57,376 bases of DNA from a virus. Shown one piece after another: positions 5,108 through 44,120 of this stretch. Below the pieces are notes generated by a model. It did not search any database, was not told the origin of the DNA, and was given only the letters and a program-made list of their open reading frames with translations. Positions within the stretch are counted from its first letter, which is position 1, and each line of letters begins with the position of its first letter. Where the stretch lies: the IMG/VR virus record IMGVR_UViG_3300034407_002847, positions 1-57,376 of that record. One strand, given 5' to 3'. Made by a program: the position numbers and the translations under genes.

Positions 5108-6559
5108 CTATGCTGGATTGTTTGTAGAACAAGCTATCCAAGCTTTTACACCATTTATTTCGACTTGAATATGATGCGTAGTAGCACCAGTATTGGTTAA
5201 TGTAGAAATGGCGGATGTTGCATCCGCATCTGCCGATGCACGGAAATTAATCAATCCAGCATCTTCCGTGGTTTTGTCAACAACGACATCACCAGTAAAC
5301 TGTACAGCAGTAGGAAATTCAATATCTCTTACCGCACCTATACCATCAGCCTCTGCAGCAATTATAAAATTACTAGACAACCGACCATAAACACTTAATC
5401 TCTCATAACTGGAAGCAGTTATAAATTTATTATACACATTTAATTTAGATGGGCTTGAAGTTTGTCCCAAATGTAAATTACCATTTTTATCTACTAAAGA
5501 TAATACTGTACCCCCATCATTAGCCCATTCTTGTATAGACGCTGTATGAGAAGAGCCTCCGTCCACCGTTAATGCTGGATAAGAATTGGCCGATGAATCA
5601 ATATGAACACCCGTTACTGCATGTGCTTTTATAATATTGTCATTTTGATGCTGAACTACAAATCCATCAGGGTGAGATAACCTAAGCGAACTTGTGGAAT
5701 TTGCTACTAACCTTACGTCTCCATCTTTGCCATGCACATAAGCATGATCTGGGGCTTCTGAAGTATCATCAGGACTACTTTTAAGACCCAGCTTCCATGT
5801 TGGAGAAATTTCACCGTCATTATGTAAACTTACTGTTCTATCGTACACACTATCCACATAAGCATGAAATATATTACCCGGTTCCGATAATTTAAATGTT
5901 GTTACTTTTTTATTATAAGGTGTTAAATTAAGATTTCCACTAATCTGTACGTTATTAATTCCACCATTAATGTCTAAATTGTTTACACTAGCAGTTTCAT
6001 GAATAGTAACATCGCTATTAAATGTGGCACTATTATTGATCTCTGCGGTTCCACTTACGCCTATGTTTCCTGCTATAGACATGTCACCCGCTAGAGACAA
6101 ATCTTTATTAAATACCACATCGCCACTAGCATTAAAAATACCACTAATAGTAGTATTTCCAGTGATGTACATATCGTTAGAAACGATAACATTTCCAGAA
6201 CCAAGTTGAATGATAGATTTGGCAGGTACATCCAAGGCACCATCAGCATTTAAAAAAACCGCTTTGCTAGCTGGGTAAGTACAGAAAACAATAGACACGC
6301 CATTTAAATTAATACCTGAGCCTGCTCCAAGTGAACTACCAAAAACGGTATCTCTCGACAAAGTGTTCCCCGAGGCACTATATGTGCCTAGACCAACCTC
6401 CCATCTTGACTCGTTTTCTATGCCGTAATAGGTCTGGTTACCATCACCCACAGACGATCCAAAAGACTGGAATGCTCCGAAAGTTCCACCGAGAGATACC
6501 GTACCAGTACCGGTGGTAATGGACGTTTCTTTTACCCTATCTGAAATCACAAGAGACAT
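5108..6559 (-). CDS. Tail fibre protein
   Basis: A 483-aa protein. Residues 1-115 are the shared attachment module seen in the gene at 1-1337: 'SDRVKETSITTGTGTVSLGG', 'WEVGLGTYSASGNTLSRDTV', 'VFCTYPASKAVF'. A middle shaft follows with short repeats 'ISGIFNASGDVVFNKDLSLAGDMSIAGNIGVSG' (read as repeating NIxxSG units), then a long beta-rich region. The two genes are paralogues that have diverged mainly in their distal parts, as expected for adhesins under selection. It lies 3 bp from the upstream glycosyltransferase gene. Host binding is inferred. Confidence 0.8.
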   Translation of the reverse strand: MSLVISDRVKETSITTGTGTVSLGGTFGAFQSFGSSVGDGNQTYYGIENESRWEVGLGTYSASGNTLSRDTVFGSSLGAGSGINLNGVSIVFCTYPASKAVFLNADGALDVPAKSIIQLGSGNVIVSNDMYITGNTTISGIFNASGDVVFNKDLSLAGDMSIAGNIGVSGTAEINNSATFNSDVTIHETASVNNLDINGGINNVQISGNLNLTPYNKKVTTFKLSEPGNIFHAYVDSVYDRTVSLHNDGEISPTWKLGLKSSPDDTSEAPDHAYVHGKDGDVRLVANSTSSLRLSHPDGFVVQHQNDNIIKAHAVTGVHIDSSANSYPALTVDGGSSHTASIQEWANDGGTVLSLVDKNGNLHLGQTSSPSKLNVYNKFITASSYERLSVYGRLSSNFIIAAEADGIGAVRDIEFPTAVQFTGDVVVDKTTEDAGLINFRASADADATSAISTLTNTGATTHHIQVEINGVKAWIACSTNNPA

Positions 6560-13200: not shown

Positions 13201-14423
13201 TCTTTAAAGATGAATCTATAATCTCTAATGTAGTCAGAGCCGCTAGAATGTACTTCAAATCCAGCACCATCAAGAGAGCCATCGCTTAGATATCCACAAA
13301 GAGCACCACCAGTAAGTCCATCGGTGCCTGGGTCACAAAAGCCACTTGTAGCAAGATGTAATGTTTTACAATCATAAATACATTCATTAATGGTATTATA
13401 CTGAAGATCATTAATAGTAGCATTGCCGCTTACAATGATATCATTAAACCATCCATCCCACTTTAAGCTAGGACTACCCAAAGCATAAACATTGTTTTTA
13501 TGAGGAACAATACTCCCAGCAACTGTAACAGCACCTTCGTTGCCGGATGGAGTCTCTGTATGAATTCCAATATTTCCACCACTATCGATAATGAAAAAAG
13601 TGGAAACGTCATATTGATCTGGATAAGCCTCTCCTTTAGGAATATGTCTCTTAATAGAGAATGAACCAGACTCAGGATAAGATATACTGGATAAAAACGC
13701 TGTTTTCCAATTATACGAACCGTGCCCAAGATTAAAACCATCATTATGAGAAGGAGATATATCACCAGAAGACTGTATAGCACCAAAACTATGTAGGGTA
13801 TTTACACCTACGCCAAGTTTTTTATTAAGTAAATCACCAAACAATAATGGGATATTGCCAGAAGATACTTCTATATCACATAGATCATCATGATCAACGG
13901 CATGAGCACCAACATAGAAATTATAACTAGAATCTTCGCCAACGTAACTACCAGCACCATGACCAATAGCTATATTAAAGTCACCTTTTTTATTGCTCTG
14001 AAGACTAAAGTTACCAACGCCAACATTACCTGAACCAGTAGTATTTCCCGCAAGAGCATTGAATCCCACTCCCACATTCTGACTACCATAAAGATTGCAA
14101 CTTAATGCGGCAGCACCTATTGCAGTATTTTTTATACCGTCATAGTTACCATTGAGAGCATAATAACCAAAAGCAGAGTTGTCTTGGTTTGATCTACCAA
14201 TTAGATCCCTTTTTGCGATAGCTCCGTCACCAACGAGAGTGGTTCTAGTTTCAACACTAGCGACATTTTTAGCTACAACAGTCTCATTATCAAGAAAGGA
14301 ATTAACTGAGTCAACTAGATCAGTTAGACTATTTCTTAAATCTGCTGGCGATATCTGTTGAGTAGAGTTGTCTGGCAACAACAACCCTATAGAGGTAATA
14401 TACCCCTCTTTGGTGAGAATCAT
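10224..14423 (-). CDS. Very large tail fibre with YadA-like head repeats
   Basis: A 1399-aa protein, the largest in the window. Residues ~20-45 carry the 'ISPADLRNSLTDLVDSVNSF' anchor shared with 1367-2308. Residues ~85-180, ~790-860 and ~1130-1230 contain arrays of ~14-residue units such as 'NTAIGAAAL', 'NVGVGFNAL', 'NIAIGHGAG', 'SIFIGTNAG' and 'SIGIGEHAL', the signature of left-handed beta-roll heads of trimeric autotransporter adhesins (YadA/Hia type). The intervening parts are Ser/Gly-rich shafts. It starts at ATG 14423, 18 bp downstream of the 154-aa gene. Long receptor-binding fibre is the likely role. Confidence 0.85.
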   Translation of the reverse strand: MILTKEGYITSIGLLLPDNSTQQISPADLRNSLTDLVDSVNSFLDNETVVAKNVASVETRTTLVGDGAIAKRDLIGRSNQDNSAFGYYALNGNYDGIKNTAIGAAALSCNLYGSQNVGVGFNALAGNTTGSGNVGVGNFSLQSNKKGDFNIAIGHGAGSYVGEDSSYNFYVGAHAVDHDDLCDIEVSSGNIPLLFGDLLNKKLGVGVNTLHSFGAIQSSGDISPSHNDGFNLGHGSYNWKTAFLSSISYPESGSFSIKRHIPKGEAYPDQYDVSTFFIIDSGGNIGIHTETPSGNEGAVTVAGSIVPHKNNVYALGSPSLKWDGWFNDIIVSGNATINDLQYNTINECIYDCKTLHLATSGFCDPGTDGLTGGALCGYLSDGSLDGAGFEVHSSGSDYIRDYRFIFKEPDQSIACLEGDSNYARSRWQSNISLEVTEGQHVQTQRVLGDRRLSLVTQSGCHGLFFRQLNNASGNITYLGTQDHVDAYSYHQSVNLIGTSGTGDYYLSVGSVDSGVSVGVDFATRISGDMVGFGLANYDDVNTDTDRFSVKVHNNTSTILEPLSVLRSNGSVGITNISVAAGAAPIVAASGTVLHVQAGDNCNVRFSSSGLQSSSLDLIANGNTRGSGVQIAYSPTSKIVDFSLIKSSGHNGELSSFISVTNAGYVGIGELSRAGSRNIVPFEPLVISHSGVSNSGTIAIREQATTPSATADFGKIYVKPKVLTGQTQSLYFRDDGGNEFNIVRNEVEDGVYGDIRANTYAGTSSPASRPTASAHHNTTLGYYALNAATTASGNIAIGSGALQYTTTGSENTVVGGGSLFKAVAPNDNTIVGTFNVGSGTDAEGNVVLGHGNLRHSASSPTGCIIIGTGIKDNVHDTIVNHTLAIGHGTAPLVYGSLSSRSFDIKDGSLSIGNSGDRHVLSISHGVSGVREITVVDLKDNVNGAAVSGALALRFTDSDGDTRQLVEFDHTAAGMSNTPSYVGPTTASPRPFVKLEGDMLLRGCVKFADGTYMDSANAQSNFAGTGLRLASASYGNVMHLEYINLQNAESLTPTVLTGESYVAVSVASGTSDLVGKMSIQELTTYISTSGTATVATNCNHVFTNSDISLGGNSGVVIIGCGTGASATGWKNSVMIGSEAGMNATTPNVNLATDTPAVFLGYRAGRDADNVSNSIFIGTNAGYLAKNSDGSIFIGQSAGTNNTMDDSIGIGEHALRGTLGSSEGGKRNIEIVAGLLDNERLLYERGHLTGKLNIQNTMAGDTDRRRLSIGDAVITPDAPLSVRLDHAISGHSGIHNVQTWYCDDVKVAQLTCDGNLETTASGVSGVIGNIIEGFLMEAIPCPDAYQSPTSGILKTKGANFIDDLNVPIVNRDHSMSIGSGAFVVAARVNGEFRPISVSCSGA

Positions 14424-28275: not shown

Positions 28276-29094
28276 TTATGTATCAGTTGACTGAATATTG
28301 CTGTCTTGTTCGTCGTAAAAAACCGTTTCATGATTCAAAAATGGTCGATCCACATCTCCATCTTCATATTTATGAAAAGCACCAAGTCGCCGCTTTTCTT
28401 TTTCCATTGATAATCGCATCTTTTCCATCTCTAACCCATAATCTCGCATCTTTTCCGGATTACTGATAAGAAACGAAAGCCATCCAGTAAAGCTTTGGTT
28501 ACTATCTTCAAGTCGCTTAACCCGTTGTTCCCTAGTGGCTTTCATTTCCTTCAGCATCTTGTTCTTCTTGTCCTGTAGATCCCGATAATCCCTACCAAGT
28601 GCTTCTGTAGAAGCCTTAAGAGATGCCGCCTGCCTTTCCATGTTGAAAAGCTGGTCTCTATCCTGATCCTCCGCCCTATTCCTTTCCTGTGTTATTAGAA
28701 CTTCTAAGGCCCGTACTTGTTCTAAGTTATCCTTACTCGCAGACAATGAACGATTCATTAATAGATCCAGCTTGATAAGGTCTACCACCTGGACTTCTTC
28801 GGTTGGAATTACATCATCTTTAAATTGAGAAATTATCCTTGACCAATGATACCTAAAAAGTTCTAATTCTTCCTCCGTAAACTGCTCCTTGATATTAGAC
28901 CAGTACGGACGATCCTCTAATTGATATGCCGCCTCTTCTTCGCCGGACAAACCGATTTTAAATTTTCGCTTTATGAACTGTTGTATACTATCGGGATCTC
29001 TATCAAGCTTCTCCGCAATCTGAATATGAGACATTAGAGACAAGTTATCCTGTATATACTGTTCTTCTGTTTTGGATATCCTACCTTTCTTCAT
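28276..29094 (-). CDS. Helix-turn-helix and coiled-coil protein, candidate small terminase
   Basis: A 272-aa protein. Residues ~5-45 ('ISKTEEQYIQDNLSLMSH' then 'IQIAEKLDRDPDSIQQFIKR') form a helix-turn-helix, and residues ~110-230 form a long charged coiled coil. DNA-binding head plus oligomerising helix is the design of small terminase subunits, and no other candidate lies near TerL. It overlaps the sigma-factor gene by 14 bp. The assignment is an inference; a transcription or replication accessory protein is the alternative. Confidence 0.6.
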   Translation of the reverse strand: MKKGRISKTEEQYIQDNLSLMSHIQIAEKLDRDPDSIQQFIKRKFKIGLSGEEEAAYQLEDRPYWSNIKEQFTEEELELFRYHWSRIISQFKDDVIPTEEVQVVDLIKLDLLMNRSLSASKDNLEQVRALEVLITQERNRAEDQDRDQLFNMERQAASLKASTEALGRDYRDLQDKKNKMLKEMKATREQRVKRLEDSNQSFTGWLSFLISNPEKMRDYGLEMEKMRLSMEKEKRRLGAFHKYEDGDVDRPFLNHETVFYDEQDSNIQSTDT

Positions 29095-29590
29095 AAAAAC
29101 CGTTATCCTCTAATATAGTTTTAATTGTTTCTTTAATATCCTGCTTGCGAGAAATCGGAACATATACCTCACTCATCATTTTAAGATAGTCCATACGCAT
29201 AGATGGAGGCAAATCGCGATTGATAATACCGATCATATCTTTCGTGTCAATATTATAACCCTCATCATCCACAAATGTTTCTTCCAGACTATCCTCGTTT
29301 TCAAGCTGTGCCGGTTTAAGAATATTAATACGTTGAGGAGAATCATTTGTAGTAAAATGGTTATCTCTTACAAAATTCTTTAGGCGATTCGAAAGGTTAA
29401 CCGATAAGAAATTTTCCAGTTTCCTTGTACTATCATAACGGTGAAGTGCGTCCATGCAGATAATAAATGACTCTTGTTTAATATCATCGACCGTATAACC
29501 GTAAAAGGTATAACGAGGTGCAATACGATTAACCACAATCATAATCTGGTCAACCACTTGTTGCTCTGTCATACCTTTTGGAACCTTCAA
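29081..29590 (-). CDS. T4 gp55-like late transcription sigma factor
   Basis: A 169-aa protein. Residues ~15-80 hold 'VNRIAPRYTFYGYTVDDIKQ' and 'ESFIICMDALHRYDSTRKLE' followed by 'NFLSVNLSNRLKNFVRDN', a sigma70 region 2 layout with the aromatic-rich core that binds the -10 strand. Regions 3-4 are missing, as in gp55-type phage sigma factors, which recognise an extended -10-like late promoter without a -35 box. It would direct host RNA polymerase to late promoters; the GTGTATAATA sites in this window are the obvious candidates. Confidence 0.8.
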   Translation of the reverse strand: MKVPKGMTEQQVVDQIMIVVNRIAPRYTFYGYTVDDIKQESFIICMDALHRYDSTRKLENFLSVNLSNRLKNFVRDNHFTTNDSPQRINILKPAQLENEDSLEETFVDDEGYNIDTKDMIGIINRDLPPSMRMDYLKMMSEVYVPISRKQDIKETIKTILEDNGFYEER

Positions 29591-29617: not shown

Positions 29618-30382
29618 CTAGTTGGGAGTAGTGGTGACACTAGCCCAACCTTGCGACGTAAAGACTTCCAGACAGTCAAGCTCATCATTATAATATAAAA
29701 AACCTTTCTGTGGATGCTCTGGTCTAGAATCAGATCGCAGATGTATGTGCCCACAAGTTAAGCGGTTTTCTAATTCCAGTCTGCTAGTAGCAAGAATTAA
29801 CGGTTTTTCCGATTCCTTAACGGCGGAAACAATACGGTCATCGGTTAAAATTATCCGCAACTCCGCCCCGTCAATAGACTGGATCGTATTGTTAAGTCTG
29901 CCGAGAACAGTGTTGTCCTCAAGCTCAACGGGCGTTGGATCGAATCTGTCAACACTACACAGGACGGAGTTGGGAGTAACCATTGCTTCAAGATAATTTT
30001 CGGGAACATATGTACGTACCACGAAATAATCCGCTTCTAGATTTAATTCTACGGGCCTTCCATTGGTGTTATAGAATGTACCCCGACTATCAGTTGTTCT
30101 AAATGCATACTGCCGTTTGAAAGCTTTTTTGCTGTCACCATATGAATAAACTTCTCCTATACCATACTCTGACTGAATTTCTTGTCCATCATCATAAGAT
30201 GTAATAAGATAAAAGAAATTCTCTTTTTCTGGCAGTTTACCCATACAGCAGTCATTATCGCATATGGGAAGTTCAGAAGCGGTTTTCTCATACTCACGAC
30301 AGTCTAGAATTTCGAAATCGTCACTGTGCGGAATCCTCCTGCATGGAGATATGTAACCCGGCTTACTCATGACGCTAATCAC
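29618..30382 (-). CDS. Virion-associated hypothetical protein with fibre-type C-terminus
   Basis: A 254-aa protein. The last ~40 residues, 'PEHPQKGFLYYNDELDCLEV' plus 'FTSQGWASV', match the short motif that ends many phage tail or fibre proteins (G..yYN...~.l.vf....W..v). The N-terminal part has a Cys cluster ('ICDNDCCMGKLPEK'). I use the GTG at 30382, whose first G is shared with the preceding TAG stop and which has GAGGTG 8 bp upstream; ATG 30370 is the alternative. Structural role inferred. Confidence 0.65.
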   Translation of the reverse strand: MISVMSKPGYISPCRRIPHSDDFEILDCREYEKTASELPICDNDCCMGKLPEKENFFYLITSYDDGQEIQSEYGIGEVYSYGDSKKAFKRQYAFRTTDSRGTFYNTNGRPVELNLEADYFVVRTYVPENYLEAMVTPNSVLCSVDRFDPTPVELEDNTVLGRLNNTIQSIDGAELRIILTDDRIVSAVKESEKPLILATSRLELENRLTCGHIHLRSDSRPEHPQKGFLYYNDELDCLEVFTSQGWASVTTTPN

Positions 30383-30615
30383 TAGTTTTCACCTCGATTA
30401 TCAGATTCTTTGTCTTCCTGTTCATCATCACGACCAAGACCAGTACCACCACCACCACCACCACCAATGCTCAAAACGGAGGCTATGGAACGATCTTGCT
30501 CCTTAAGCTCATCAAGAATCTCATCGTTTAACGCAGCAGTTGCCCTAGTTACCATCGTAGTCTCGCACACAAAAGGAGCGGCTTCGCTACCATCTGCAAA
30601 TTCAGTACTTTTCAT
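30382..30615 (-). CDS. First gene of the leftward operon, Gly-tract small protein
   Basis: A 77-aa protein starting MKSTEFADGSEAAPFVCETT. A helical middle ('AALNDEILDELKEQDRSIAS') is followed by eight consecutive Gly residues and an acidic, disordered tail. It has a good ribosome site (GAGAGGTG) and is the first cistron after the structured leader. The next gene starts on its stop codon. The end-of-helix plus Gly linker suggests an adaptor or attachment peptide, but no family is recognised. Confidence 0.65.
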   Translation of the reverse strand: MKSTEFADGSEAAPFVCETTMVTRATAALNDEILDELKEQDRSIASVLSIGGGGGGGTGLGRDDEQEDKESDNRGEN

Positions 30616-30637
30616 ATTGACACCTCTCGTTATATTG

Positions 30638-30697
30638 AAAAAAAATGGGATGAAGTGCTGAATCCTAATCTAGTCAGGATGACTGCATGAATCCCAT
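30638..30697 (-). ncRNA. Structured element copy B with terminator
   Basis: On the minus strand: outer arms ATGGGAT and ATCCCAT; internal strands TCATGCAGTC and TCAGCACTTC; inner helix ATCCTGA/TTAGGAT with loop CTAGA; eight T follow. It lies in the 5' leader of the late operon, downstream of copy F, and could act as an attenuator. One of six copies of a covarying motif. Confidence 0.75.
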
Positions 30698-30699
30698 AA

Positions 30700-30764
30700 G
30701 ATTCTATGAAATAAGGAGTTGAATTCTATTTGTATAGAATAACCAGTTGAATCTCATTAGAATC
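30700..30764 (-). ncRNA. Structured element copy F
   Basis: On the minus strand: outer arms ATGAGAT and ATTTCAT (one G-U), extended by GATTC/GAATC; internal strands TCAACTGGTT and TCAACTCCTT; inner helix ATTCTAT/ATAGAAT with a 4-nt loop ACAA instead of the pentaloop. It is directly followed by copy B. Confidence 0.7.
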
Positions 30765-30771
30765 TATTTAT

Positions 30772-30792
30772 GTAGGAAGTATAACTTCCTAC
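30772..30792 (-). promoter_or_regulatory. Hairpin at the 5' end of the late-operon leader
   Basis: GTAGGAAG and CTTCCTAC pair perfectly over a 5-nt loop at the predicted transcript start. It could stabilise the message or serve as an operator. Confidence 0.55.
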
Positions 30793-30796
30793 TAGT

Positions 30797-30824
30797 AATA
30801 TACACCAGAAGCGGTTTTTGTCAA
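30797..30824 (-). promoter_or_regulatory. Sigma70-like promoter of the leftward operon
   Basis: Minus-strand TTGACA, 16-bp spacer, TATATT. It points into the leader with hairpin, copies F and B, then the first gene at 30615. It is the only consensus-like promoter seen ahead of the 30-kb leftward gene set. Confidence 0.65.
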
Positions 30825-31145
30825 ATAAATTTCTCGTTTTTAAGAAAATAGTTCAAAAAAAATACAGAACAGGGGCAAATGAGTAACTATTAGGGGCTGA
30901 TAGGGGTGGTTTCGATAGTACATTTACATTGAGGCGTTTGAAAAGTGTGTAGACCACCCCTCCTAAATTACCCAACCAGCCTACCTTGCCAAAAGCCACT
31001 AAAACCCCCGCCTTACCTAGACTACCAAGCTTACCAAAGGTAACTTCTCAATATTGGTAACGTTATTCTTAGCGATAAGAACAGCAACGACAATTGAGAC
31101 TGAGTCTCAATAGGGATGATCTTAAGAATCTGGCGAATTGTTATC
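30825..31145. other. Divergent intergenic region, no gene seen
   Basis: This stretch separates leftward late genes from rightward early genes. It has a long-range inverted pair (GGGGTGGT near 30902 with ACCACCCC near 30953) and a strongly C-rich plus strand from about 30950 to 31040 with repeated 'CC(A/T)N' steps. I find no open frame with a ribosome site. It may hold regulatory or replication signals. Confidence 0.5.
31093..31111. promoter_or_regulatory. Perfect palindrome, candidate operator
   Basis: ATTGAGACT-G-AGTCTCAAT, a 9-bp perfect inverted repeat about one base, 35 bp upstream of the -35 box at 31146. Shape and position fit a dimeric regulator site. Confidence 0.55.
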
Positions 31146-32659: not shown

Positions 32660-32741
32660 CGTAAACCCTTGCCACATAACGACTTACGACGTGAAAACCG
32701 GCCCCGTGAACATAAACCCTTGTACGGCAACGACTTACGGC
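32660..32741. repeat. Paired repeat R1
   Basis: Two copies of a ~25-bp unit of form CGTAAACCCTT-N6-AACGACTTACG separated by a GC-rich spacer containing CCGGCCCCGTG. The ends CGTAA and TTACG are inverted. One of five such pairs at 32-39 kb. Confidence 0.75.
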
Positions 32742-32839
32742 AAAAACCAAATTTCTTAAAAATAGGGAATGTTTATTTTCTTGGTAATGACGGCGGCATT
32801 CTCATCAATGGGATCTTAAAAACTTGGCGGATTGTTGTA

Positions 32840-33685: not shown

Positions 33686-33783
33686 TTACGGTTTTCTCAA
33701 TTGTAGGAATCTTTCTGTTTGCTCTTGTGTTCTCTTGGGCAATGGCGGAAACCATCGCAATATTGACGGATATTTTTACCTAA
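33682..33783 (+). CDS. Small membrane protein ending in repeat R2
   Basis: A 33-aa protein (MITVFSIVGIFLFALVFSWA and on) that is one membrane helix with a short polar end. It starts by ATGA overlap with the previous stop. Its own stop TAA is the first three bases of repeat R2, showing that the repeat defines the gene end. Confidence 0.5.
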   Translation: MITVFSIVGIFLFALVFSWAMAETIAILTDIFT

Positions 33784-33860
33784 ACCCTTGGTGGCAAACG
33801 ACTTATGTCGCCAAGCCCCGCCGCGTCGTCGTAACCTGTTAAGTGCCAACGACTTACGGC
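33781..33860. repeat. Paired repeat R2
   Basis: TAAACCCTTGGTGGCAAACG and the rest of unit one, spacer CCCCGCCGCGTCG, then unit two ending CAACGACTTACGGC. Unit one supplies the stop codon of 33682-33783. Confidence 0.75.
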
Positions 33861-33897
33861 AATAGCTTAAACTTGCCATAAACTTGGGGAATAACTA

Positions 33898-34368: not shown

Positions 34369-34379
34369 ATAACGGCAGG

Positions 34380-34407
34380 TGTCCAATCGGACCTTGTCCG
34401 ATAATGT
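34380..34407 (+). repeat. 28-bp repeat with hairpin, copy 1
   Basis: Identical over 28 bp to 35651-35678. It contains CGGAC-CTT-GTCCG followed by ATAATGT, and downstream an AGTCAGC(G) tail. It lies upstream of the two-helix membrane gene at 34458. Confidence 0.7.
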
Positions 34408-34457
34408 CTGCAGTCAGCGGGCCAGCAGTCACCGAGAATTTTATAAGGGAGAAAATA

Positions 34458-35633: not shown

Positions 35634-35650
35634 GTAGGTTGATGGACAAG

Positions 35651-35678
35651 TGTCCAATCGGACCTTGTCCGATAATGT
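35651..35678 (+). repeat. 28-bp repeat with hairpin, copy 2
   Basis: Identical to 34380-34407, preceded by GGACAAGTGTCC (a second inverted repeat) and followed by TATAGCCAGTAGTCAGC. Confidence 0.7.
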
Positions 35679-35701
35679 TTATAGCCAGTAGTCAGCAGTT
35701 G

Positions 35702-36513: not shown

Positions 36514-36648
36514 ATGAGAATCTTAATAATTGCTAGTCTACTATTATTGCCGGGCTGTAAAGTTGTAAGCTCATTTGCAGTAGATCATAGTTTTCACAAA
36601 GAAGCGACACAAGCTAGAGCCAAAATTCAGTTTGAACATTGTTTCTAA
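36514..36648 (+). CDS. Small lipoprotein
   Basis: A 44-aa protein starting MRILIIASLLLLPGCKVVSS. 'LLPGC' is a clear lipobox, so the mature protein would be a ~30-aa lipid-anchored peptide. Size and lipidation resemble outer-membrane spanins (Rz1), but it is not Pro-rich and no inner spanin adjoins. Superinfection exclusion lipoprotein is an alternative. The stop TAA is the first part of repeat R3. Confidence 0.6.
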   Translation: MRILIIASLLLLPGCKVVSSFAVDHSFHKEATQARAKIQFEHCF

Positions 36649-36726
36649 ACCCTTATGCCGTCTCGACTTACGACGGCAGGGCGGGCCGCGTCGGCCTAAA
36701 CCCTTTGCTGGTAACGACTTAGGTCG
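36646..36726. repeat. Paired repeat R3
   Basis: TAAACCCTTATGCCG...CGACTTACGAC, spacer GGGCGGGCCGCGTCGG, then TAAACCCTTTGCTGGTAACG ending ACTTAGGTCG. Supplies the stop of the lipoprotein gene. Confidence 0.75.
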
Positions 36727-36769
36727 AATACCTCATTTTGTGCATAAATGGTCTTGAGTATTTCAGGGG

Positions 36770-37944: not shown

Positions 37945-38148
37945 ATGACCGCTTTAATAGACATAACCGGGCAAACGTTTGGCAAGTGGAAAGTCATTAA
38001 AAGATCCGACCAACCCAACGTATACACTCTATGGCAATGTCAATGCAAATGTGGGAAAGTTAAAAATGTCGCAAGTCAACATCTTAGATATGGCAACTCT
38101 AAACAATGTTTAAGTTGTGCAAACGTGACACGAAAAAAATCGACGTAA
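37945..38148 (+). CDS. Zinc-finger fragment as in phage HNH/AP2 proteins
   Basis: A 67-aa protein: 'DITGQTFGKWKVIKRS', 'LWQCQCKCGKVKNVASQHLR' and 'CLSCANV'. This is the N-terminal zinc-binding module that precedes AP2 and HNH domains in many phage endonucleases ('D.tGq.fG.w~Vi.r...W.C.C.CG....v....L..G.s.sC'). The nuclease part is absent, so it is either a stand-alone DNA-binding protein or a truncated homing enzyme. Its stop TAA is part of repeat R4, which may mark the truncation. Confidence 0.7.
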   Translation: MTALIDITGQTFGKWKVIKRSDQPNVYTLWQCQCKCGKVKNVASQHLRYGNSKQCLSCANVTRKKST

Positions 38149-38223
38149 ACCCCTTGAGGGTAACGGGTTATGACGACCCGGCCCGCCGCGTGACCCTAAG
38201 TCCTTTGATGCCAACGACTTACA
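38142..38223. repeat. Paired repeat R4
   Basis: CGTAAACCCCTTGAGGGTAA, spacer CCCGGCCCGCCGCGTG, then CCTAAGTCCTTTGATGCCAA ending CGACTTACAAC. Supplies the stop of 37945-38148. Confidence 0.75.
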
Positions 38224-38358
38224 ACTATTTTTGTAAATCCGGCCAAATTGTTATTTTGAAGCAATTATTAGTTACAATCTACGCCGATATAAACTACAAT
38301 GGGATTTCGCCGGGAACATGTGTTTCCAGCACTTAAAACCTTTTGGAGAATTTGAGCT
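38224..38358 (+). promoter_or_regulatory. Intergenic region with weak early-type promoter
   Basis: Contains GGCCAAATTGTTATTTTGAA, like the upstream flank of the promoters at 31146 and 32840, and a weak TTATTA-17 bp-TATAAA pair. It precedes the DUF932-like gene. Confidence 0.4.
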
Positions 38359-39316: not shown

Positions 39317-39400
39317 GCCGTAAACCCTTACCACCAAACGAGTTAAATCGGCCCGGCCCGCCGCGTCGTCGTAAACCCTGTTATACCAACGACTTAGGGC
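39317..39400. repeat. Paired repeat R5
   Basis: GCCGTAAACCCTTACCACC..., spacer CGGCCCGGCCCGCCGCGTCG, then CGTAAACCCTGTTATACCAA ending CGACTTAGGGC. It follows a terminator and is not fused to a stop codon. Confidence 0.75.
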
Positions 39401-39437
39401 AATTGTTCTAAAAATTCTTGACATGCGTTGATTGGCC

Positions 39438-41351: not shown

Positions 41352-41908
41352 AAACTCCAAAAACACTGGGTTTATCTAAAAAGGTCTACTTTTCTACCTA
41401 GTGAAAACACTTTTTAACGCTATAAAAATCCAAATAACCTATTTTTAGTCAAAAAACGACTCCATTTTTGGTATATATCAGAATTCAGTGGATTATTGTA
41501 ACTAGATTACGATTCAACATCTCATTCTGTTTATACCAACTATGGGGCTGTTTCACCACTATGCTATTCACATAACCAGCAAAAATATTGACTTTTTGAT
41601 GCTTTGGGCGTGATCCCCATGTGTGAAAATTTTTATTGCCTGTACCCCACCCTAAATTCTCACATTTGAGAAAACTCTACATATTTCGGTTACTTGTATT
41701 GCCTTATACTTATAGTAGTATTAGTATTGTGTATAGAGTAATAAATTGATTGATGAAGTTGCATTTTCGTAGATGTTGGACTTTTGAGAAAATCAAGCAC
41801 GTTTAAGTTGTTATAAGTGTAATCTCTCTCTATATTGTGTATCTTAAGTTCATAGTAAAAGAGAGAAAACTGCACAAAAAAACCTTTCTAGAGAAAAACT
41901 GAGATGAA
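41352..41908. other. Long AT-rich intergenic region holding element C
   Basis: About 560 bp without a credible gene. It contains structured element C, a long-range pair TTTCAC/GTGAAA followed by ATTTTTATT near 41556-41640, and GTGTAT-type sequences near 41728 and 41836. It is the largest non-coding stretch in the right half and may hold regulatory RNA or a replication signal. Confidence 0.55.
41470..41537 (+). ncRNA. Structured element copy C
   Basis: Outer arms CAGAAT/ATTCTG extended by GGTATA/TATACC; internal strands TCAGTGGATT and TCAACATCTC; inner helix ATTGTAA/TTACGAT with loop CTAGA. Stand-alone copy in a gene-free region. Confidence 0.75.
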
Positions 41909-43979: not shown

Positions 43980-44120
43980 ATGACTGATGACAAAGTCCGA
44001 GGACTAATTGAATTGATTGATTGGTTTCATGGAAATCAACTAAAGGACAGAGAAGATTCTCATATCCAATTAGAAGTTGATGTTATCAAATCATACCTCA
44101 AGGAGTTGACAAATGAGTAA
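43980..44120 (+). CDS. Small hypothetical protein
   Basis: A 46-aa helical, acidic protein starting MTDDKVRGLIELIDWFHGNQ. GGAGTTGAAG precedes the ATG. Its last codons form the GGAGTTGACAA-ATGAG junction with the next gene, overlapping it by 8 bp. Confidence 0.6.
   Translation: MTDDKVRGLIELIDWFHGNQLKDREDSHIQLEVDVIKSYLKELTNE

Follow-up and report, generated by a model that had tools for sequence, protein, structure and literature searches.

Intercistronic hairpins are known from the polycistronic transcripts of phage T7, where RNase III sites such as R1.1 are stems about 50 nt long that bear symmetric boxes, to which the two enzyme monomers correspond, and are tied to mRNA maturation and protection (PMC8708148). 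The pan RNA motif (RF01749) is a simple stem with two conserved interruptions, found mostly in tandem, which suggests that it is a dimeric protein site (PMC2864571). The put RNA of phage HK022, about 70 nt long and made of two stem-loops, is confined to sites downstream of PL and PR, and its target is RNA polymerase (PMC9378689), on which it acts directly through the beta' zinc-binding domain. The locus described here lies in a virus record of IMG/VR (IMGVR_UViG_3300034407_002847), and the whole stretch of 57,376 nucleotides that was analysed is referred to as the window. It carries, in the leader of a long operon, an adjacent pair of hairpins (elements F and B) that belong to a larger RNA family. 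The family resembles the T7 sites in being an intercistronic hairpin of symmetric layout, but it has a fixed internal loop of 10+10 nt, in each strand of which U, C and A are invariant, forms tandem arrays and directly abuts tRNAs. Its placement and symmetric arms would fit an RNase III processing site, for which about two turns of near-continuous helix in a twofold layout are expected. With pan it shares a twofold-looking stem and tandem copies, whereas pan has two bulged A residues and lies before bacterial pantothenate genes. The likeness to put is that of a structured phage RNA near a promoter, with F-B as an adjacent hairpin pair; nonetheless, identity with put was ruled out, since the unit is a single 58-nt hairpin that is often solitary and also occupies intergenic and 3' sites.

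The leader of the leftward operon

The first-pass annotation had proposed, at 30616-30824, a late-operon leader in which a promoter is followed by a 5' hairpin, F, B, eight U and the first gene, and every part of this anatomy was indeed found, on the minus strand. The sigma-70-type promoter of the leftward (late) operon (30797..30824, minus strand; TTGACA-16-TATATT, an 11/12 match) has its boxes at 30824-30819 and 30802-30797; it is kept in the relative G001 and is weaker in the relative G012, where TTTACC stands with an unchanged TATATT. The 5' hairpin at 30772..30792 (minus strand; GTAGGAAGTTATACTTCCTAC) folds into 9 bp with the loop UAU, and its counterpart in G001 and G012, GTAGGGAGcaaGCTCCCTAC, differs from it by a compensatory change. 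Since these compensatory changes are seen in relatives that are devoid of F-B, the 5' hairpin is a separate conserved part of the leader. Element F (30703..30760, minus strand), a family copy with no U-tract, scored 62.0 bits in R1 and 54.6 bits in R2, and element B (30642..30700, minus strand) scored 75.6 and 64.9 bits, respectively. With short flanks F folded at z = -3.1, and B alone reached -17.2 kcal/mol (z = -2.8), while the fold of the whole leader (-47.1 kcal/mol, z = -6.4) was equalled by none of 200 shuffles.

The 7-bp stem of B is directly followed, 3' of its outer helix P1, by eight U (30638..30645, minus strand; from the sequence and the tail count), such that B ends in the manner of an intrinsic terminator, as had been claimed. 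A simple terminator scan missed B because it allowed loops of at most 8 nt. No promoter was seen between B and the first gene, an ORF of 77 aa at 30382..30615 (minus strand, ATG at 30615) that had no match in PHROGs. The gene set of about 30 kb attributed to this leader was also borne out, as the leftward ORFs form an uninterrupted series between 30615 and about position 3, in which a head protease and a terminase are encoded. Downstream of B, a second promoter-like site (11/12) is located at 29250-29223. As separate observations in this region, a sigma-factor-like protein of 169 aa, conserved in the window's relatives, is encoded at 29081-29590 (minus strand), its gene being the third after the leader's first gene set, and a perfect 17-bp palindrome at 31094-31110 (TTGAGACTGAGTCTCAA), possibly an operator, lies between the divergent operons and is also present in G001.

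A family of pseudo-twofold hairpins

F and B represent one and the same element, of which the window has four more copies, A, C, D and E; three of these emerged from a repeat search as related plus-strand stretches of 51 nt, and a pattern scan added the fourth. Element A (41475..41533, plus strand; R1 71.9 bits, fold z -3.7), with the outer stem TTGGTATA/TATACCAA, lies in an intergenic region of 630 nt. Element C (49247..49305, plus strand; R1 68.7 bits, fold z -4.7) is placed between a DNA methyltransferase gene and an ORF of 629 aa, the product of which found no matches when used as query for relatives. Element D (51230..51288, plus strand; R1 67.2 bits), whose P1 contains the stop codon of the preceding gene, stands in tandem with element E (51301..51359, plus strand; R1 71.0 bits, fold z -4.5). 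The 12-bp P1 of E is followed by the terminator-like TATTTTT, and after it a promoter-like site, TTGAAA-18-TATAAT, can be read from the sequence at 51369..51398 (plus strand). All window copies are oriented with the genes, leftward in the case of F and B and rightward in that of the other four.

The family unit of about 58 nt consists of P1 (7 bp), an internal loop with two central pairs, a second helix P2 (5 bp), and a terminal loop. The internal loop is pseudo-twofold, with AUUCA-N5-UYAU on both strands, and the arms on its two sides are of similar length (7-8 bp in P1, 5-7 bp in P2). In the alignment of the six window copies, 98.8% of cells were paired and 10 of the 14 pairs showed double changes, a result not approached in any of 500 shuffles or six slid controls. 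Extension to 73 distinct rows retained 98.2% pairing, with 372 double-change cells against 102 in the shuffled alignment, and slid controls reached at most 44%. In 70 distinct copies each strand of the internal loop measured exactly 10 nt, and the two central pairs were the only ones in the loop to covary (99-100% paired; MI 1.7 and 1.4). A central helix of 4 bp was rejected, as no more than about 56-61% of copies form its two outer pairs, and side-by-side local hairpins were also ruled out, as P1, the central pairs and P2 covary in nested form. It is to be noted that the search patterns required AUUCA and UYAU, which accounts in part for those letters being invariant; the window copies, however, were found without the search pattern, and their loop conservation is not imposed by it. 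Nor does the search pattern account for the covariation, since the paired letters, with the exception of the closing A-U pairs, were left free. These results leave virtually no doubt that the copies constitute one real structured RNA family with a strongly conserved hairpin, and thereby confirm the claim that F and B are structured elements in tandem.

A pseudo-twofold layout, with unpaired stretches that oppose each other on either side of a short central helix, is also characteristic of the bulge-helix-bulge (BHB) motif of the archaeal tRNA splicing endonuclease, in which 3-nt bulges surround a 4-bp helix to give 7 nt per strand. A canonical BHB was nonetheless ruled out, because the family loop has 10 nt per strand and strictly keeps only two central pairs. 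Moreover, in contrast to the archaeal setting of BHB, the member contigs carry bacterial-type features, e.g., tmRNA, DNA polymerase III alpha and DnaB.

Members were collected from IMG/VR contigs by loop-based DNA patterns and then by a covariance model, the E-values of which came from a short calibration. More than 70 distinct copies were obtained in about 35 contigs of uncultivated phages. Matches in L440, L444, L448 and L452 were left uncounted, as they look like one locus; the two examined lie inside an ORF of 139 aa. The family was previously unlisted and is absent from Rfam 15: only tRNAs passed the gathering threshold in the window and five member loci, no family including the riboswitches and pan scored above it, and permissive Rfam searches returned weak matches at chance level. 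The absence of similarity to put sites or riboswitches, noted at first pass, was upheld. No description of the motif was found in literature searches outside subscription papers. Bacterial genomes, scanned with the pattern over 257 Gb, contained no convincing member (98 pattern matches, of which five were weak model matches with E of 0.002-0.07). Nor were copies found in eight isolate phages that share some proteins, in about 1.15 Mb of the window's relatives, or in four large relatives of 136-174 kb; isolate phages had no DNA similarity to the window. The copy-free relatives carry the core genes of the member phages. The spread of the family is patchy within one phage clade. Separately, a diverged copy of 28 bits was noticed upstream of the DNA polymerase gene in G039 (L373, 864-921), with closing pairs GU/AC instead of AU/AU, which suggests that more distant members exist.

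Placement of the copies, and their gain and loss

The copies sit between co-oriented genes, on the coding strand and often in tandem, and among the copies listed none had an upstream neighbour on the opposite strand. Typically, a copy directly follows a stop codon, which P1 sometimes includes, or precedes a start codon by 17-33 nt. Arrays of 3-6 copies are common, and about ten copies are packed in 1.2 kb of L465. In two cases, the tRNA pairs of G038 (6163-6371) and G031 (13427-13637), a copy exactly fills the place between the two tRNAs; another three copies abut a tRNA, and in L476 a five-copy array precedes tRNA-Arg. When copies were placed at random in the intergenic space of the same loci, 0.35 were expected within 6 nt of a tRNA, compared to the five observed, a number that was reached in none of 5000 random placements. 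Four copies (G025, G030, G033, G039) follow the last gene of an operon and are themselves followed by a terminator-like hairpin, beyond which lies a convergent gene. The neighbour genes are functionally mixed, and include those for DNA polymerase, RIIB, PhoH, ribonucleotide reductase, UvdE and others. A strong U-tract, defined as 6 or more T in the 8 nt after P1, was present in 6 of 71 copies (~8%) and at 3% of control positions, and the mean number of T in these 8 nt was 2.9 in the family and 2.8 in controls. As the T content after P1 equals that of controls, the family as a whole was rejected as intrinsic terminators; individually, B and E do have a G+C-rich stem directly followed by a U-tract, and are two of the six strong-tract copies.

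Comparison of relatives documented that the copies are gained and lost in a cassette-like manner. In the two closest relatives, G001 and G012, the promoter, the 5' hairpin and the first gene are kept, but the F-B segment (30638..30762, minus strand, by alignment), of 123-125 nt, is missing; G012 is also devoid of element A at the matching site. In another branch, the phoH and Zn-ribbon genes overlap in G017, the phoH gene of which is 92% identical to that of the members, whereas in members three copies stand between the two genes and a new ribosome-binding site has been gained there as well. Similarly, two copies precede the DNA polymerase gene in members, as opposed to a 12-nt gap in G017; away from the leader, arrays stand between genes that abut in relatives.

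Proposed role and competing explanations

F and B are not a control built specially for the late operon. Considering all positions together, we favour, with roughly even odds of being correct, the reading that the copies are intercistronic RNA processing or end-protecting elements, read by a symmetric and probably host factor, e.g., RNase III. Processing or end protection is favoured because it fits all positions, whereas leader regulation does not fit the tRNA-flanked and 3' copies. Each hairpin would act in cis in the transcript as intercistronic punctuation; a symmetric, dimeric factor, for which host RNase III or another host endoribonuclease or RNA-binding protein is the candidate, would bind the pseudo-twofold loop flanked by similar arms, and a cut or protection at the hairpin would separate and stabilise the flanking mRNAs and tRNAs. 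In the window, the probable task of F-B is to process the late mRNA at its 5' leader or to stabilise that leader, B possibly serving also as a leaky terminator, and D-E would delimit the transcript of the 629-aa gene on its 3' side, with E as its terminator before the promoter-like site.

We infer recognition by a dimer, cleavage or protection, and the host origin of the factor. A dimeric protein is suggested because two half-sites and similar arms are arranged about the central pairs, and RNase III is the obvious candidate since stems of this kind are acted on by its dimer (T7 R1.1, PMC8708148). No RNase III domain was detected in 28 phage records (21 member records, the window and six non-members), and a BLASTP search of the incomplete contigs found no protein family that is restricted to members and shared by every large one, although one family of 366 aa is limited to seven of them. 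The lack of a member-only protein common to all large members suggests that any trans-acting factor is encoded by the host, within the limits of the incomplete contigs and of BLASTP sensitivity. On the other hand, the loop strongly conserves its U, C and A, letters on which ordinary RNase III of the host does not depend, so that a more specific factor may be required. A further, more tentative possibility, which we consider somewhat doubtful, is an undescribed class of phage RNA, consisting of transferable, array-forming pseudo-twofold hairpins that are inserted among the genes and tRNAs of large uncultivated phages and serve as universal processing marks for a sequence-specific dimeric factor not encoded by the phage.

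A dimeric RNA-binding protein could also occupy the hairpins without cutting, and govern translation or mRNA stability as proposed for the tandem pan motif. The pseudo-twofold loop, the tandem copies and the many copies 17-33 nt before start codons would agree with this; however, copies between tRNAs, or between a last gene and its terminator, govern no start codon, the neighbour genes are functionally mixed, and no phage protein tracks the element, which together make this explanation unlikely. The first-pass annotation had instead favoured attenuation or antitermination. In such a leader, transcripts begun at the late promoter would end at B until F or some factor permits read-through, which would time the expression of the late genes. 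This draws on the U8 after the 7-bp stem of B with no promoter before the first gene, on the stable fold of the leader, and on E as a good terminator look-alike ahead of a new promoter. Against it, the closest relatives dispense with F-B while keeping the promoter and the 5' hairpin, about 92% of the copies have no strong U-tract, many stand at 3' ends, in 3' arrays or between tRNAs, and the second promoter-like site lies downstream of B. Since the closest relatives are devoid of F-B and arrays stand between genes that abut in relatives, attenuation is not the function of the family, and read-through control as the purpose of this leader is quite improbable, even though B could act here as a leaky terminator.

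The least probable account, to which we give little credence, is that of a selfish or mobile intergenic repeat that multiplies and spreads between co-oriented genes with little function for the phage. Presence and absence between close relatives, the tandem array of L465 and the patchy spread in one clade are what such a repeat would produce, but the strict coding-strand orientation and the strong covariation, loop pairs included, indicate selection on RNA, and no mobility gene or target-site signature was identified. Returning to processing or end protection, this reading on its own leaves the place of B between promoter and operon unexplained.

Overall, the family is a well-supported structured RNA, new with respect to Rfam 15, and is added to the scarce list from uncultivated phages. 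The two copies exactly between tRNAs offer precise sites at which to study the cutting and balancing of long transcripts in such phages, and the gains and losses between close relatives amount to natural comparisons with and without the element.

Other repeats were observed in the window. One of 83 nt, TAAACCCTTG...AACGACTTA, itself two-part, has five plus-strand copies in the rightward early region (32662-32744, 33781-33863, 36646-36728, 38146-38228 and 39321-39403); these copies revealed no consensus RNA structure with compensatory changes, and are perhaps DNA-level sites. The stretches 34376-34417 and 35647-35688 are 88% identical copies that include the hairpin ATCGGACCTTGTCCGAT. Lastly, the motif GGAGTTGACAAATGA, which joins a ribosome-binding site, a TTGACA-like string and ATG, is repeated on the plus strand at 44102, 44320, 44633, 44755 and 45782, several of these being at gene starts.
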